This document shows positions 21,689 to 29,478 of a DNA stretch of 59,409 nucleotides, piece after piece (positions within the stretch are counted from its first letter, which is position 1; each line of letters starts with the position of its first letter). The DNA is from a virus. The translations under genes were made by a program, and so were the position numbers. The stretch is from positions 1 through 59,409 of IMG/VR virus record IMGVR_UViG_3300005531_000120, one strand, 5' to 3'. The notes beneath the pieces are model-generated. The model did no database searches. It saw only the letters and a list, made by a program, of their open reading frames with translations, and had not been told where the DNA came from.

Positions 21689-23014
21689 ATGTCCATCTGG
21701 TCGCGCATCGCCGGGCTCCTCGCGCGGCGCGAGAAGATGACGCCGGAGGAATGGTTCGAGAGCTTCTACGGCGGCTCCGCCAAAAGCGCGACCGGCGAGG
21801 TCATCAACCAGATGGCGGCCCTCAGGGTCGCGGCGGTCTGGGCCTGCGTCACGATCCTCGCCGAGGACGTCGCGAAGCTTCCCTGGCACGTCTACCGGCG
21901 CCGGGCCGACGGCGGCAAGGCGATCGCGCAGGACCATCCGCTCGAGGCGCTGCTGCAGCGGCCCAACGATTATCAGAGCAGCTTCGAGTGGAAAGAGCAG
22001 ATGATGGCGGCGCTGGTGCTGCGCCGCAACGCCTACGCGCCGATCCGCCGCGACTGGCGAGGCGCGCCGACGGCGCTCATTCCCGTCAATCCCGACTGGG
22101 CGTCGATCTATCAGGCCCCTGACGGCCAGATTTTCTACAGGGTCGCGGTCCAGAACCAGCACCTGGCCGCGATGCTGCGCTCCTTCCCGGAGATGATCCC
22201 CGCCGAGGACATGCTGCACATCCGCGGCATGAGCCTGAACAGCCTCTGGGGCCAGTCGGCGATCGGGTCCGGCCGCGACGCGATCGGTCTGGCGCTGGCG
22301 CAGCAGGCGCTGGCCGCCGTGTTCGCCAGCAACGGAACGCAGCTCTCGGGCGTGCTCGAGGTGCCCCAGAAGCTCAGCCCCGACGCGTATGCGCGGCTCA
22401 AGGCGAGCTGGAAGAAGGCTCGCTCCGGCATCAACAATGCCGGCGAGACGGCGATCCTGGAGCAAGGCGCCAAGTTCAGCCGCTTGGGCATGACCTCCGT
22501 CGATGCCGAGTTCATCGCGGCCCGCAATTTCCAGGTCGCCGAAGCCGCGCGGATGTTCCGCATTCCGCTGCACAAGCTCGGCATCTCCGAGCGCTCGACC
22601 AACACCACGATGGCCCAGGCCGAGCAGGAGTATGCCAACAACACCGTGCTTTCCTGGGTCACCCGGATCGAGCAGAAAATGAACCAGGCGTTCGGGCTCT
22701 ACGACGACGGCGCGTTCGTCGAGTTCGACATGTCGCACTTCCTGCGCGCCGACATCGTGAGCCGTTACAGCGCCTATCGCACCGGCATCGTCGGCATGTT
22801 CCTGACGCCCAACGAGGCGCGGCGTGCGGAGGGCCTGCCCGAGGTCGACGAGGGCGACACGCTCTATCAGCCGACGAATGTGGCGCCGATCGGCTTCGAG
22901 CCCGCGGGCAAGGAGACCGGTCCCGGCAGCGACGTCACCGGCACCGCCGCGCCGGGCGGCGCCGGCGATCCAGCGGCCGCTCCGGACGAGGACCCCACGG
23001 CGCCCCAAGGCTGA
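21689..23014 (+). CDS. Portal protein
   Basis: 441 aa, HK97-family portal. Typical features: GEVINQMAALRVAAVWACVTILAEDVAKLPWHVYRR (start of the crown/clip fold), PLEALLQRPNDYQS, a GQSAIGSGRDAIGLALAQQ block and TMAQAEQEYANNT, DMSHFLRAD near the end. Forms the dodecameric DNA entry ring. The last 40 residues are Pro/Gly/Ala-rich. Confidence 0.93.
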   Translation: MSIWSRIAGLLARREKMTPEEWFESFYGGSAKSATGEVINQMAALRVAAVWACVTILAEDVAKLPWHVYRRRADGGKAIAQDHPLEALLQRPNDYQSSFEWKEQMMAALVLRRNAYAPIRRDWRGAPTALIPVNPDWASIYQAPDGQIFYRVAVQNQHLAAMLRSFPEMIPAEDMLHIRGMSLNSLWGQSAIGSGRDAIGLALAQQALAAVFASNGTQLSGVLEVPQKLSPDAYARLKASWKKARSGINNAGETAILEQGAKFSRLGMTSVDAEFIAARNFQVAEAARMFRIPLHKLGISERSTNTTMAQAEQEYANNTVLSWVTRIEQKMNQAFGLYDDGAFVEFDMSHFLRADIVSRYSAYRTGIVGMFLTPNEARRAEGLPEVDEGDTLYQPTNVAPIGFEPAGKETGPGSDVTGTAAPGGAGDPAAAPDEDPTAPQG

Positions 23015-23035
23015 TTTTCGCGCGAGGAGATTTTC

Positions 23036-24097
23036 ATGCGCCATCGCGCCTTTCCCGGGCCGCGCCTAGAGACGCGCGCTCTCTACGAGCGGGCGGGCAA
23101 ATTCCTGCTGGCCACCATCTTCCGCGACGATGACGCGCGCGCGTGGTGCAAGGCCAATGGCATCGCGATCACGCGCGCCGCGGACGAGACGATGGACTCG
23201 ACCGGCGGCTTCCTGGTCCCCCACGAGCTCGCCGCGGCGATCCTGGACCTCCGCGACATGTTCGGCGCCTTCCGGCGCCGGGCTCGGATCATGCCGATGA
23301 AGCACGACTCCATGGGCGTTCCGCGGCATGCCGGCGGCACGAGCGCGTTTTTTACCGCGCAGAACGCGGCTGTCAGCGGCACCAACGCCAATCCCGACAG
23401 CATGTCGCTCACGGCCAAGAAGATCGGCGCGCTCGTGCAGATCTCGAGCGAGCTCGAGGAGGACGCGATCGACAGCATGGTCGATTACGTCGCCAACGAA
23501 ATCGCCTTCGCGTTCGCGGCCCAGGAGGACGACTGCGCCTTCAACGGCGATGGCACCTCGAAATACGGCGGGATGCTCGGCGTCTCGGCGATCGTTCTCG
23601 ACGGTAACCACAACAAGGCGAAGGTCACCGCGGCCTCCGGCCACAACACCTTCGCCGGCCTCGACACCACGGATCTCGGCAACGTGATGGCCGCGGTCCA
23701 GGCTTCCGCGATCCCGAACGCCGCCTGGTTCTGCTCTCAGACCGCCTTCGCGCTCACGTTCTGCCGTCTCGCCGGATCGGGCGGCGGCGGCTATCTCGAC
23801 ACGCGCCTGGTCGATGGGATTCCGACCCCCTGTTATCTCGGTTTTCCGGTCGTCCTGACCCAGAAGCTGCCGCTGGTCACGAGCTCGCTCTCGGGAAAGG
23901 TGATGCTCGCGTTCGGCGACATGTACGGGGCGGGCGTGCTCGGCGAGCGGCGCGGCATCACGATCGCGCGCTCTTCCCACCGGTATTTCGATCAGGACCA
24001 GATCGGGGTGCTCGGCACGGAGCGCTTCGACGCCGTGCTGCATCAGATGGGGGACAACGCGAATTTCGGGCAACTCGCCGCGCTGGTGGGGAACTGA
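23036..24097 (+). CDS. HK97-type major capsid protein 1 (no delta domain)
   Basis: 353 aa. HK97-fold signatures are clear: STGGFLVPHELAAAILDLRDMFGAFRRRARIMPM, a GTSAFFTAQNAAV E-loop region, AFNGDGTSKYGGMLG, GFPVVLTQKLP and a C-terminal QIGVLGTERFDAVLH. Only about 37 residues precede the conserved ATIFRDDDARAWCK block, so the scaffolding delta domain is absent. It lies between portal and protease, an unusual place, and is a paralogue of the protein at 25666. It could be a minor capsid subunit or a second shell protein. Ribosome site GAGGAG. Confidence 0.9.
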   Translation: MRHRAFPGPRLETRALYERAGKFLLATIFRDDDARAWCKANGIAITRAADETMDSTGGFLVPHELAAAILDLRDMFGAFRRRARIMPMKHDSMGVPRHAGGTSAFFTAQNAAVSGTNANPDSMSLTAKKIGALVQISSELEEDAIDSMVDYVANEIAFAFAAQEDDCAFNGDGTSKYGGMLGVSAIVLDGNHNKAKVTAASGHNTFAGLDTTDLGNVMAAVQASAIPNAAWFCSQTAFALTFCRLAGSGGGGYLDTRLVDGIPTPCYLGFPVVLTQKLPLVTSSLSGKVMLAFGDMYGAGVLGERRGITIARSSHRYFDQDQIGVLGTERFDAVLHQMGDNANFGQLAALVGN

Positions 24098-24098
24098 C

Positions 24099-25502
24099 AT
24101 GCTCAAGCGATTGACCATCGACGAGTTCCGCGCGGCCGCTCGCGAGAAGCGCGCGCTCGAGGGCACGGTCTCGCGCCTGGCGCTCTCCGACGGACAGGCG
24201 GTGGACGGGCAGGCCCGCACCATCCGCTTCGTCTTCAGCGACGGCACGGTCGACCGCGCCGGCGACCGCATCGATCCCGAGGGCTGGGACACCGAGGATT
24301 TCCTCAAGAACCCGGTCGCCCTCTGGGCGCACGACAGCTACTCGCCCCCGATCGGCCGCGCCTCGAACATCGGGCCCGTGGCCGGCAAGCTCATGGGCGA
24401 TATCGAGTTCATGCCCGCTGACATCAGCGCGTTCGCGGACAGCGTCTTCCGCATGGTGCAGGGCGGCTACGTGAAGGCGGTCTCCGTCGGCTTCCGGCCG
24501 ATCGAATGGACCTTCACCAACGACAAAGACCGGCCCTACGGCATCGACTTCACGAAGCAGGAGCTGCTCGAGATCTCGGTCTGCCCCGTGCCCTGCAACC
24601 CCAATGCGCTCCTCGAGGCGCGCGCCAAGGGTATCAACACCGCGCCGCTTCTCGAGTGGGCCGAGCGCCTGCTCGACACCGGCGAGAGCGTGCTGGTGCC
24701 GCGCGCCCTGCTCGAGGAGACCTTCAAGGCCGCAAAGACGCCGAAGACCACCCGGCAGAAATATCTGGCTCCTCGCGCGAAGACCGCCGACTGGAAGGTC
24801 GGCGCGGCGCGCGATCTGCCGCTCGACCAGTCCGACTCCTGGGACGGCGCCGCGGCCGCGGCCTCGATCTTCGAGCACGCCGGCGGCGACGATTTCAATC
24901 CGGAGGTCGCGAGGAAGGGCTTCCTGGTCTACGACGCGAGCGCGCCCAAGCTGCGCGGCTCCTACAAGGAGCCTTTCGCACACGTCGTCGACGGCACGCT
25001 GAAGGCCGTCAAGGGCGGGATCCGCGCGGCGGCCTCGCGCCTGCCGCAGGCCGACATCTCCGACGGCGCCCGCGCCGAGGCGAAGGGCGTCATCGAGCAT
25101 TACGAGAAGGCCTTCGGCATCGGCGAGGGCGACAAATCGGTCTCCGGGGAGGACGTCCCGACCGGTACGTGCGGCCGCTCGAAGGACGAAGAGTGCCTCA
25201 TGAAGGATCCGCAGAACTGCGCGGTCCATTACGTCCCGCCGGCGCCTCCAAAGTCGAAGGCGGGACGCCGCATCTCCGCCGCGACGAAAGCGCTTCTCGA
25301 AGCCGCAGCCTCTCATCATGCCGAGGGCATGGCCTGCCATGCCAAGGCGCTCGATTGCATCAAGACGGTGCTCGAGAGCAACGATCCCGCCGGCGACGGC
25401 GACGACGACGCCAACCAGCCGACCGATGACGAGGATACGAAGCGCCATCGCCGGCAAGAGGCGGCCCGGAAGCTCCGCGAGGAGCTCGGTATCGAGAACT
25501 AG
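24099..25502 (+). CDS. HK97-family prohead protease with C-terminal extension
   Basis: 467 aa. Residues 30-185 are the protease: GTVDRAGDRIDPEGWDTEDFLKNP, catalytic-type LWAHD (His about 71), VKAVSVGFRP with the probable catalytic Ser, and LLEISVCPVPCNPNAL. Residues about 225-345 form a second conserved unit (RDLPLDQSDSWDG, FLVYDAS, SYKEPFAHVVDGTLKAVKGGIRAAASRL) seen fused to proteases in some phages. The C-terminus has a Cys-bearing region and an Asp-rich tail. Cleaves scaffold/delta domains during capsid maturation. Its neighbours are the two capsid proteins. Confidence 0.92.
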   Translation: MLKRLTIDEFRAAAREKRALEGTVSRLALSDGQAVDGQARTIRFVFSDGTVDRAGDRIDPEGWDTEDFLKNPVALWAHDSYSPPIGRASNIGPVAGKLMGDIEFMPADISAFADSVFRMVQGGYVKAVSVGFRPIEWTFTNDKDRPYGIDFTKQELLEISVCPVPCNPNALLEARAKGINTAPLLEWAERLLDTGESVLVPRALLEETFKAAKTPKTTRQKYLAPRAKTADWKVGAARDLPLDQSDSWDGAAAAASIFEHAGGDDFNPEVARKGFLVYDASAPKLRGSYKEPFAHVVDGTLKAVKGGIRAAASRLPQADISDGARAEAKGVIEHYEKAFGIGEGDKSVSGEDVPTGTCGRSKDEECLMKDPQNCAVHYVPPAPPKSKAGRRISAATKALLEAAASHHAEGMACHAKALDCIKTVLESNDPAGDGDDDANQPTDDEDTKRHRRQEAARKLREELGIEN

Positions 25503-25665
25503 AGCCGTCCGACCGGCTCTTCGCCCAGACGGCCCTTGGGCAAGGCAATCCCGCGGCGCCGAGAGTGCGCCGCATCCCACCAACGCCACGCAGATACCTT
25601 CCCGCGAGCAGGAGCCGACGGTTCGGCCCGCGTGAGGGAGTGGCATTTGACGGAGCCCACCAGCA

Positions 25666-26979
25666 ATGGCGAAGAAGCATGAGCTCCGCCAGGCCCTCAC
25701 TAAGGCCGTGGCGGAGTTGGAAACCATGGCCGGCAAGTCCGAGGCCGAAGGTTTCAAGCAGGACGTCTACGACGCCCTGAACGAGAAGATCCTCGACCTC
25801 AAGAAGCAGCTCGAGCGCGTCGAGCAGGCGGAAAAGGTCGCGGCCGCGCTCGCGAGCCCGGTGCCGGACGCGGACCGCTTGACGCCGCTGGCGCCGCCCT
25901 CCGCGCACAAGCTCTACGGCACGCTCAAGCATTTCCGCGATCGCGAGGTGAACGGCCGCACGATCCGCGCGGTCGATCAGGCCTATGCCGCCGGAATGTG
26001 GTTCAAGGCCACGATCTTCGATCACGCCGGCGCGAAAGACTGGTGCAAGTCGCACGGCATCTCCATCGCGAAGGCGCAGGGCGAGGGCATCGACAGCGCC
26101 GGCGGCTTCCTGGTCCCCGAGGAGCTGCTCGCCAACATCATCGTGCTCCGCGAGCAGTTCGGCGTCTTCCGGCGCGAATGCCAGGTGGTGCCGATGGGCA
26201 GCGACACGCTCAACTGGCCCCGCCGCACCGGCGGCCTGACCGCGTTCTTCACCGGCGAGAACAGCGCGGTGACGGAATCCCAGGCCTCGTGGGACAACGT
26301 CAACCTGACCGCCAAGAAGCTCGCGGTCCTCACGCGCATGTCGAACGAGATCGCCGAGGACGCGGTGATCTCGGTCGCCGACTGGCTCGTGGGCGAGATC
26401 GCCTATGCCTTCGCGCTCAAGGAGGACGACACCGGCTGGAACGGCGACGGGACCTCGAGCTACGGCGGCATCCGCGGCGTGCTGACCGTCTTCGCCGACG
26501 GCAATCACACCGCGGGCCAGTACCAGGTCTCGAGCGCGACGCTCACGTCGCTGGTCCTCAAGGACCTGACCGGCACCATGGGCGTGCTGCCGCAATACGC
26601 GATCGGGTCGGCCAAGTGGTACATGTCGCAGCAGATGTTCTACTCGGTGGTCGCGACGATCACGGCAGGGGCGGGCGGCAACCGCCTCGACGTGTTGACC
26701 GACCCGGTCAACCCGCGGCTCCTCGGCTTCCCGGTGGTCTTCTCGCAGAAGCTGCCGGTCGCCACGCCCGGCTCCGGCAAGGCGATGTTCCTGTTCGGCG
26801 ACCTCGCCAAGGCCGCCGCGATGGGCGAGCGCCGCGGCGTCACGATCAAGCGGTCCGATCATCGCTACTTCGAGAACGATCAGATCGGCCTGCTCGGCAC
26901 CGAGCGCTTCGACATCAACGCGCACGACCTCGGCGACACGTCGAACGCCGGCCCGCTCGTCGCCGCGAAGTCGCCGTAA
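25666..26979 (+). CDS. HK97-type major capsid protein 2 (with delta domain)
   Basis: 437 aa. Residues 1-65 are a charged coiled coil (TKAVAELETMAGKSEAEGFKQ..., EKILDLKKQLERVEQAEKV) that fits the removable delta scaffolding domain. The rest aligns along its length with the protein at 23036: ATIFDHAGAKDWCKSHGI, SAGGFLVPEELL, AFFTGENSAV, GDGTSSYGGIRG, GFPVVFSQKLP, QIGLLGTERFDI. This one has the standard architecture and is the likely main shell protein. Hairpin copies 5 and 6 follow its stop codon. Confidence 0.93.
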   Translation: MAKKHELRQALTKAVAELETMAGKSEAEGFKQDVYDALNEKILDLKKQLERVEQAEKVAAALASPVPDADRLTPLAPPSAHKLYGTLKHFRDREVNGRTIRAVDQAYAAGMWFKATIFDHAGAKDWCKSHGISIAKAQGEGIDSAGGFLVPEELLANIIVLREQFGVFRRECQVVPMGSDTLNWPRRTGGLTAFFTGENSAVTESQASWDNVNLTAKKLAVLTRMSNEIAEDAVISVADWLVGEIAYAFALKEDDTGWNGDGTSSYGGIRGVLTVFADGNHTAGQYQVSSATLTSLVLKDLTGTMGVLPQYAIGSAKWYMSQQMFYSVVATITAGAGGNRLDVLTDPVNPRLLGFPVVFSQKLPVATPGSGKAMFLFGDLAKAAAMGERRGVTIKRSDHRYFENDQIGLLGTERFDINAHDLGDTSNAGPLVAAKSP

Positions 26980-27130: not shown

Positions 27131-27574
27131 ATGCTCCCGCAACTCAAGCAGATGCCCCTCCTGAACGGCTCGTCGGTGGCGACCAACGCCACCGTGACCG
27201 CGAACTTCGACACCCTCGGCTACGATTGGGCCACCGTCGACGTCTTCGGCGCCACGGCGGCCACCAACAACCAGCCGACCGTGCTCAAGCTCAGCGAGGG
27301 GGATACCACCTCCTCCTTCACGGACATCACCGGCTTCGTCGGCGGCACGGCCGTTGACGCGACCCACGGCTTCGTCATCCCGGCGCAGGTGACGACCGGC
27401 TTCTACAACACGAAGTTCAACATCGACCTTCGTGCCCGTAAGCGTTACCTGCAGATCAGCATCGGGTCGCCCGGCGCCGCGACGGCTTTCTCGGCCGTGG
27501 CGAACCTCGGCCGCGGCGAGCAAGCCCCGGTCACGGCTTCCAAGGCGAACGTCCAGGCGCTGGTGGAGGGCTAA
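27131..27574 (+). CDS. Probable head-associated protein
   Basis: 147 aa with a GAAAAGGA ribosome site. Beta-rich (NATVTANFDTLGYDWATVDVFG..., RKRYLQISIGSP), which suits a decoration or head-completion protein. Position directly after the main capsid gene supports this; no family recognised. Confidence 0.55.
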   Translation: MLPQLKQMPLLNGSSVATNATVTANFDTLGYDWATVDVFGATAATNNQPTVLKLSEGDTTSSFTDITGFVGGTAVDATHGFVIPAQVTTGFYNTKFNIDLRARKRYLQISIGSPGAATAFSAVANLGRGEQAPVTASKANVQALVEG

Positions 27575-27673
27575 CCGCATTCCCGGCCCGACAGCCGGGA
27601 GCGAGGTCAGCGCTGATAGGCGGGCGGAGTGTCGGCTCCGCCCGCTGCTTCTCCCCGACAGGAGAGTTCCGAC

Positions 27674-28876
27674 ATGGACAACGACACACGCGAGCATCGT
27701 GAGCTCGCGGAAGCCTGCGCCCGACCGATCAAGCTCGACCTCGGCGCCGGCCCGGTCTCGCCCGCAGGCTTCACGCCGATGGGCGCGGATCATGGCTCCG
27801 CGATCTTTCCGCTCGACTATCCCGACGACTCCGTCGACGAGATCCGCGCGAGCCACGTGCTCGAGCATTTCCCGCACCGCCAGGTGATCGACGTCCTGCG
27901 CGAGTGGGTACGCGTGCTGAGGCCCGGCGGGCGCATGCGCATCGCGGTGCCGGACCTGCTGGTGATCTCGCAGAAATACATCGCCGGCGAGCCGATCAAC
28001 GTCCAGGGCTACCTGATGGGCGGCCAGATCGACGCGAACGATTTCCACAAATGCGCCTTCGACGAGGAGGCGCTCGGCGAGGTGATGGCCGCGGCGGGCC
28101 TGCTGCTGATCCGCCGCTGGACCTCCGAGCTCGAGGACGCGGCCGCGCTGCCGATCTCGCTCAACCTCGAGGGCCGGAAGTCGATCGGGCCCAAGCCGAA
28201 GATCCACGCGGTCATGTCCGCGCCGCGGCTTGGCTTCATGGATAATTTCGTGTCGGTGATCGAGGGCCTGGTCCCTCTCGGCATCCCCTTCAACCGGGTC
28301 ACCGGATCCAACTGGGGCCAATGCCTCACGCGCGGCATGGAGTCCGCGCTCGAGGATCCAAACCTCGACCTTGTGCTGACCCTCGACTACGACACCGTCT
28401 TCAAGTCGGTCGACCTGGTCAATCTGATCCAGACCATCATGGTCTACCCCGAGGTCGACGCCTTGGCGCCGGTGCAGTCGAGCCGCGGCAACTCACGGCC
28501 GCTCCTCGGCATGACGCTCGAGGGCGAGGCCACCACCCGCGTCCCTTATTCGACTTTCGCCGGCGACGTAACCGAGATCGCCACGGCGCACTTCGGCCTG
28601 ACGCTGCTGCGCGCGCGCAAGCTGCGCGAGCTGCCGCGCCCATGGCTACACCACGTTCCGGATCCGGACGGCGGCTGGAACGACGGGCGCGTCGACGACG
28701 ACATCGCCTTCTGGCACAAGTGGAAGCAGGCCGGGAACCGGCTCTTCCTGGCGAACCGCATACCGGTCGGCCATGCCGAGCTCGTGGTGCTGTGGCCCGG
28801 CAAGGACCTCTCGGCGATCTACCAGCCGATGCGCGACTATCACCGGGTCGGCAAGCCGCCCGAGGCCTGGTCGTGA
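27674..28876 (+). CDS. Methyltransferase-glycosyltransferase fusion
   Basis: 400 aa from ATG 27674 (GGAGAG upstream). Residues 12-150 are a type 11 SAM methyltransferase: LDLGAGPVSPAGF, DSVDEIRASHVLEHFPH, LREWVRVLRPGGRMRIAVPD. Residues 185-395 resemble a GT-A glycosyltransferase: LVLTLDYDTVF with the DxD-like metal motif (DYD) and ALAPVQSSRGNSRPL. Sugar transfer plus methylation in one chain, inside the head operon, suggests modification of a virion glycan or of the host surface. Overlaps the next gene by 4 nt (GTGA). Confidence 0.8.
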   Translation: MDNDTREHRELAEACARPIKLDLGAGPVSPAGFTPMGADHGSAIFPLDYPDDSVDEIRASHVLEHFPHRQVIDVLREWVRVLRPGGRMRIAVPDLLVISQKYIAGEPINVQGYLMGGQIDANDFHKCAFDEEALGEVMAAAGLLLIRRWTSELEDAAALPISLNLEGRKSIGPKPKIHAVMSAPRLGFMDNFVSVIEGLVPLGIPFNRVTGSNWGQCLTRGMESALEDPNLDLVLTLDYDTVFKSVDLVNLIQTIMVYPEVDALAPVQSSRGNSRPLLGMTLEGEATTRVPYSTFAGDVTEIATAHFGLTLLRARKLRELPRPWLHHVPDPDGGWNDGRVDDDIAFWHKWKQAGNRLFLANRIPVGHAELVVLWPGKDLSAIYQPMRDYHRVGKPPEAWS

Positions 28877-29478
28877 GCTTCCGCTGGCTCAACGGGCGCG
28901 CGGCGAACGTCTATTCGCAGTTCGGCGAGGATGGCGTCGTTGCCGCGGTCCTCGAGGTGATCCGTCCGGCGAACCGCTGGTGCTTCGAGTGCGGCGCGGC
29001 CGACGGCCTGTTCTTCAGCAACACCCGGCGCCTGGTGCGCGAGGGCTGGGACGCGGTGCTGGTCGAGCAGGACGCGGCGGCGTTCCAACGGCTCTGCGAC
29101 AATACGCGGGACGATCGCGAGCACGTGCACCTCGTGTGCGAGAGGCTCGACACGATCGATCCGGTGCTCCGGCACGCCGGTGCGCCCGAGGACATCGACC
29201 TGGTCGCGATCGACGTCGACGGCCAGGACTATCACCTCTTCAACTCGATGCTGCGCTACCGGCCGCGCATCGTGATCGTCGAGTACGATCCGAACGCGCC
29301 GGCCGATTTCATCCCCGACGTCGGCGGCGAAGGGCAAGCCGGCCTCGAGGCGATGCGTCGTCTCGCCGCCGGCCGCTTTTACACCGAGGTCTACCGCAGC
29401 TGGTGCAACCTGGTGCTGGTCCGGCAGCCGCTCGACCGGCTCCTCAAGCTGAGCCCAGAGGGCAAGCTGCACGTCTGA
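28873..29478 (+). CDS. FkbM-like methyltransferase
   Basis: 201 aa from GTG 28873. SAM-binding signatures WCFECGAADGLFFSNT (FxxDxGxxxG-like, here ECGAADG), VLVEQD and IDLVAIDVDGQDYHLF. FkbM-family enzymes O-methylate sugars. Translationally coupled to the fusion enzyme upstream, so the two probably act on one glycan. Confidence 0.75.
   Translation: MSFRWLNGRAANVYSQFGEDGVVAAVLEVIRPANRWCFECGAADGLFFSNTRRLVREGWDAVLVEQDAAAFQRLCDNTRDDREHVHLVCERLDTIDPVLRHAGAPEDIDLVAIDVDGQDYHLFNSMLRYRPRIVIVEYDPNAPADFIPDVGGEGQAGLEAMRRLAAGRFYTEVYRSWCNLVLVRQPLDRLLKLSPEGKLHV

Follow-up and report, generated by a model that had tools for sequence, protein, structure and literature searches.

A delta-less HK97-type capsid paralogue, and candidate penton protein, encoded beside a delta-bearing major capsid protein in a clade of phages

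Introduction

In bacteriophage HK97, the portal is wrapped by trimeric coiled-coil towers that are built from the delta domains of the surrounding hexons, two towers to each hexon (PMC10275583). The gene transfer agent RcGTA uses one capsid protein for pentamers and hexamers, with the N-arm and E-loop bent differently in pentamers (PMC7296036). Two related proteins share the shell in other systems. In T4, 65 residues are removed from the hexon protein gp23 but only 10 from the vertex protein gp24 (PMC9958956). In the SaPIbov5/phi12 system, Ccm makes pentamers and CP makes hexamers, the two differing mainly in the N-arm and E-loop (PMC8569155). Family 2B encapsulins contain two HK97-fold shell proteins that co-assemble with irregular tiling (PMC12407261); these are bacterial compartments and not phage heads. 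A phage in which one of a pair of capsid proteins naturally lacks the delta would allow direct tests of how HK97-type proteins choose between penton and hexon positions and of the part that the delta domain plays in each.

Here, we describe such a pair in a virus record from IMG/VR (59,409 bases, referred to as the window). Its head genes lie in tandem on the plus strand in the order portal, MCP1, S78 protease and MCP2, where MCP1 is a delta-less HK97-type capsid paralogue and MCP2 the delta-bearing and probably principal major capsid protein. T4 and SaPIbov5 already provide examples of capsid paralogues that occupy different positions, and the arrangement seen here would be a variant of these. 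A literature search, covering mostly papers available without subscription, returned no report of the portal-MCP1-protease-MCP2 arrangement.

Results and discussion

Two HK97-type capsid genes flank one protease gene

The portal protein (21689..23014, plus strand, 441 residues) was identified by matches to PF04860 (4e-97), PHROG 12 (portal, 1.8e-112) and TIGR01537. It is followed on the same strand by MCP1 (23036..24097, 353 residues; PF05065, 1.4e-29), whose AGGAG ribosome-binding site can be read at 23025..23029 upstream of the ATG at 23036. The prohead protease (24099..25502, plus strand, 467 residues) matches Peptidase_S78 (PF04586, 4.2e-07) over residues 51-179 as well as PHROG 80 (3e-28), and MCP2 (25666..26979, plus strand, 437 residues; PF05065, 1.3e-46) lies downstream of it. 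A sigma-70-type promoter was looked for at MCP2 and none was found. The gene order given in the original prediction, with two HK97-type capsid proteins flanking a single protease, is thus borne out by Pfam, PHROG and NCBIfam profiles.

Both proteins belong to the HK97-fold phage major capsid proteins. MCP1 and MCP2 score 103.8 and 159.7 bits against PF05065 (Phage_capsid; curated cut-off 24.2) and 146.4 and 210.9 bits against the NCBIfam model TIGR01554 (major_cap_HK97; cut-off 27.5). The pairwise alignment proposed in the original prediction gave 48% identity across 330 amino acids (E=3e-106). The closest solved relative of both proteins by sequence is the RcGTA capsid protein Rcc01687 (6TB9, 6TBA). 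Among solved structures, a profile search retrieved HK97-type capsids, that of RcGTA included; gp24 was not found. Comparison of the MCP1 model with the PDB likewise ranked HK97-fold capsids first, led by 6TB9. In RcGTA, a single capsid protein suffices for pentamers and hexamers alike. The locus resembles the HK97 gp5 module in its portal, S78 protease and delta-bearing capsid protein, with MCP2 matching TIGR01554 over its length. It differs in that HK97 has one capsid gene, whereas the window adds a second, delta-less one.

The delta domain is confined to MCP2

The match to TIGR01554 begins at profile position 2 in MCP2 but spans only positions 100-373 in MCP1, which therefore lacks the delta region. 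Structure prediction places two helices at the N-terminus of MCP2 (residues 4-22 and 32-62, block pLDDT 66-86) and no equivalent of them in MCP1. Based on this prediction and on comparison with the N-termini of delta-less MCP1 proteins, the delta scaffold domain and linker of MCP2 cover about residues 1-85 (25666..25920, plus strand). It should be noted that the monomer models are of low overall confidence (pLDDT 61 for MCP1 and 59 for MCP2) and too weak for interface work. The claim that only one of the two copies carries a delta domain is in agreement with these results.

The MCP1 reading frame opens at 23015, immediately after the portal stop, and ATG 23036 is its sole start codon. Because an in-frame stop codon, that of the portal gene, precedes this start by eight codons, there is no room for a delta domain on MCP1. 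Readthrough of this stop codon to give a portal-MCP1 fusion was considered and rejected, as the frame shared in the window is not conserved: in several relatives MCP1 is in another frame than the portal gene, with spacing ranging from overlap to more than 300 nt. The N-terminus is conserved across 25 aligned relatives, with a start motif of the form M(R/K)x(R/K)AFPG, and in the MCP1 sequences of relatives the start lies 53-57 residues ahead of the GGFLVP block. Many single-MCP relatives carry a (K/R)AF.G motif, which the first residues of MCP1 match, where the delta linker meets the mature domain. Judging by this shared motif, MCP1 resembles a capsid protein whose translation starts at the predicted mature N-terminus.

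The delta-less paralogue accompanies MCP2 throughout its clade

IMG/VR was scanned with each protein and with alignments, which yielded dozens of contigs. Once near-copies had been removed, the set comprised 34 MCP1 and 31 MCP2 sequences together with 46 capsid proteins from related phages that have a single MCP, with the second copy of contig L036 counted apart. A delta-less paralogue was found in all 28 distinct MCP2-clade contigs with readable flanks, the other three of the 31 (L038, L042 and L046) being cut by contig ends and left out. Since the unusual gene order recurs in dozens of distinct relatives, neither chance nor misassembly accounts for it. Related phages examined outside the MCP2 clade encode the delta-bearing copy only, in line with the original view that HK97-type phages normally have one capsid gene; a second capsid copy was sought in 12 whole records of such phages, each of which gave a single match.

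The delta-less gene lies between portal and protease in 26 of the 28 contigs. The remaining two, L036 and L037, show a second architecture in which it is located 3' of MCP2 and a small protein (L036:6870-7934 and the last ~150 bases of L037). A candidate absence of the gene from L037 was rejected when its start was identified beyond the small protein, where the contig ends.

Gene position bears on the possibility that MCP1 works in or close to the portal vertex, or has a part in starting assembly there, which would explain why its gene sits beside that of the portal. MCP1 follows the portal gene in nearly all relatives, and its start overlaps the portal stop in several (L005, L006 and L007), suggesting translational coupling. 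However, the delta-less genes of L036 and L037 lie after MCP2, away from the portal, and the HK97 portal is held by the delta towers of the surrounding hexons, whereas MCP1 has no delta to contribute. We consider a portal-vertex role quite unlikely.

Close relatives were sought in genome contigs in two scans aimed at the host, and none was found; the same held for 385 genomes from the class of one alphaproteobacterial MAG. A collection of 50,697 phage records contained nothing close to MCP1 or MCP2, the best match reaching ~27% identity. The two-gene arrangement is a recognizable marker of a phage clade without a close cultured relative in the collections searched.

Ancestry and purifying selection

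In phylogenetic analysis, MCP1 and MCP2 each form a clade with 100% support. Delta-less copies cluster together, and the L036 copy joins MCP1 (support 99/97) despite its other gene position. As to the age of the duplication, which the original prediction proposed to date from a tree, neither a single clade of MCP1 plus MCP2 (AU p=0.34) nor an older split is rejected. By descent, MCP1 falls outside the T4 gp24 family, being 48% identical to MCP2 and grouping beside MCP2 and the single-MCP relatives.

MCP1 is under purifying selection. All 34 distinct sequences are intact and conserve the start and the sequence blocks, and dN/dS is ~0.05-0.2 in close pairs, to which the estimate was restricted because distant pairs are unreliable, with synonymous changes near saturation at high GC3. 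A decaying duplicate might be suspected from the shorter length of MCP1 relative to MCP2 and its missing delta domain. Such decay is refuted by an intact, conserved gene under purifying selection across relatives, and a delta-less copy is present in every readable member of the MCP2 clade; we assign this explanation a negligible probability. The argument against decay in the original prediction therefore holds.

MCP1 nevertheless evolves faster than MCP2, with a mean identity of 62% versus 76% and amino-acid distances ~1.7x larger in the same genomes. Faster evolution could be taken to indicate a function other than shell building, such as that of a regulator or decoy. Against this, 79 positions hold the same residue, at least 90% conserved, in both the MCP1 and MCP2 groups, many of them in the spine and P-domain. 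Further, the MCP1 gene remains in the head operon and its match to PF05065 is still strong, leaving only a slim chance for a non-shell function.

Codon bias suggests that MCP2 is the probable abundant shell protein

MCP2 has the strongest codon bias among the head genes measured. Its effective codon number (ENC) averages 4.7 less than that of MCP1 and is the lower of the two in 23 of 26 genomes (p=5e-6; the genomes are related), while the ENC of MCP1 does not differ from that of the portal gene in the same 26 genomes (p=0.42). Among single-MCP relatives, the capsid gene has an ENC below that of the portal gene in 29 of 35 cases, indicating that the measure behaves as expected. Codon bias is a proxy for expression only, and the 26 genomes share ancestry; read in this way, the ENC pattern suggests that MCP2 is probably the abundant shell protein and MCP1 the low-copy one. 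This adds support to the minor-subunit reading raised in the original prediction, which is sharpened here to a likely penton protein.

A possible division of penton and hexon positions

The two paralogues differ in where they are constrained. Among pairs with 60-70% overall identity, subtracting the identity of the A-domain from that of the E-loop gives -0.10 for MCP1, +0.29 for MCP2 and +0.14 for single-MCP relatives, values that derive from non-independent pairwise comparisons with domain borders drawn by eye. The E-loop is thus less conserved than the A-domain in MCP1, the reverse is true of MCP2, and single-MCP proteins lie in between. Pentamer and hexamer subunits of Ccm/CP and of RcGTA differ in the N-arm and E-loop, among other regions. 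The reciprocal pattern in MCP1 and MCP2 suggests that duties of an ancestral capsid protein have been divided between the two. It shows specialization; pentons are not singled out by that shift alone.

We lean, with caution, towards MCP1 being a conserved low-copy subunit that would form the pentons, and thus the vertices, with delta-bearing MCP2 forming the hexons. As HK97 deltas do, those of MCP2 would build trimeric coiled-coil towers in the procapsid, both beneath the hexons and around the portal. The five subunits of a penton could not form delta trimers, and the vertices would therefore be where a delta is least useful and where a delta-free subunit can be accommodated. MCP1 would be born in its mature, delta-free form and placed at these vertices, while the protease would remove the delta from MCP2 only. 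A fuller version of the proposal, about which we are slightly more doubtful than convinced, holds that phages of this clade have one dedicated paralogue for each position, the hexon protein with a delta and the penton protein without, such that scaffolding is naturally restricted to hexons and MCP2 alone no longer closes the vertices.

As in T4 gp23/gp24, two HK97-fold capsid paralogues are present in one phage, with MCP1 being, like gp24, the paralogue of what would be the hexon protein, and the gp24 propeptide is much shorter than that of gp23 (10 versus 65 residues). T4 differs in having a separate scaffold core and capsid proteins that are only ~20% identical, whereas MCP1 and MCP2 are 48% identical and come from a phage of the delta-scaffold type, with the vertex role of MCP1 being putative. 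Ccm and phi12 CP are similar in that a capsid homologue occurs beside a delta-bearing CP, with co-assembly presumed in the case of MCP1. However, Ccm is satellite-encoded, has a delta that it retains and that is cleaved, and redirects the size of the head, whereas MCP1 is encoded in the phage's own head operon and lacks a delta. Two observations speak against MCP1 as a penton protein: retention of a cleaved delta by Ccm implies that the domain is not forbidden at pentons, and HK97 itself fills both positions with one delta-bearing protein.

MCP1 might instead be a minor subunit mixed into hexons or placed irregularly in the shell, where it would dilute the deltas and so act as an intrinsic size determinant, tuning the dimensions or curvature of the shell. 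Membership of the same family and the conserved positions common to both proteins make co-assembly plausible, two-component encapsulin shells do mix irregularly (PMC12407261), and head shape is altered by Ccm (PMC8569155). On the other hand, loss of deltas from a hexon would be expected to upset the trimeric towers (as deduced from PMC10275583), and the reciprocal regional constraint suggests distinct rather than interchangeable positions. Record sizes also overlap between the two groups (several two-MCP records of ~54-63 kb, one single-MCP record of 57.7 kb; records possibly incomplete). Mixing of this kind seems to us unlikely, though deserving of some weight. If MCP1 does occupy the pentons, the division of labor among capsid paralogues seen in T4 and satellite Ccm would extend to delta-scaffolded phages.

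Neighboring genes and insertions

A small conserved protein of 147 residues is encoded after MCP2 (27131..27574, plus strand) and belongs to PHROG 5707 (unknown). It is found 3' of the capsid gene in most relatives, both single- and two-MCP, and is possibly a decoration protein. The protease carries a long C-terminal extension (window 24699-25502) that gave no Pfam or PHROG match. Complete proteases have 364-595 residues in two-MCP relatives and mostly 239-379 among those detected in single-MCP relatives. The extension could be a co-evolved feature.

Between the capsid and head-tail genes, a methyltransferase ORF (27629-28876), the second half of which is weakly glycosyltransferase-like, lies beside an FkbM-type methyltransferase, the two together spanning window positions 27629-29478. 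Similar ORFs are found in L036, L047 and L179. Modification of the virion is a possible function.

In L007 and L030, MCP1 and protease are separated by 1-kb gaps. A third capsid gene at these sites was considered and rejected, since the ORFs there resemble homing endonucleases. By eye, HNH or GIY-YIG homing-endonuclease-like ORFs are located just before the protease at L007:7178-8101, L030:3496-4548, L047:3185-4510 and L091:5254-7482, the gap in L091 also containing an ATPase-like ORF. The gap directly before the protease seems to be an insertion hot spot.
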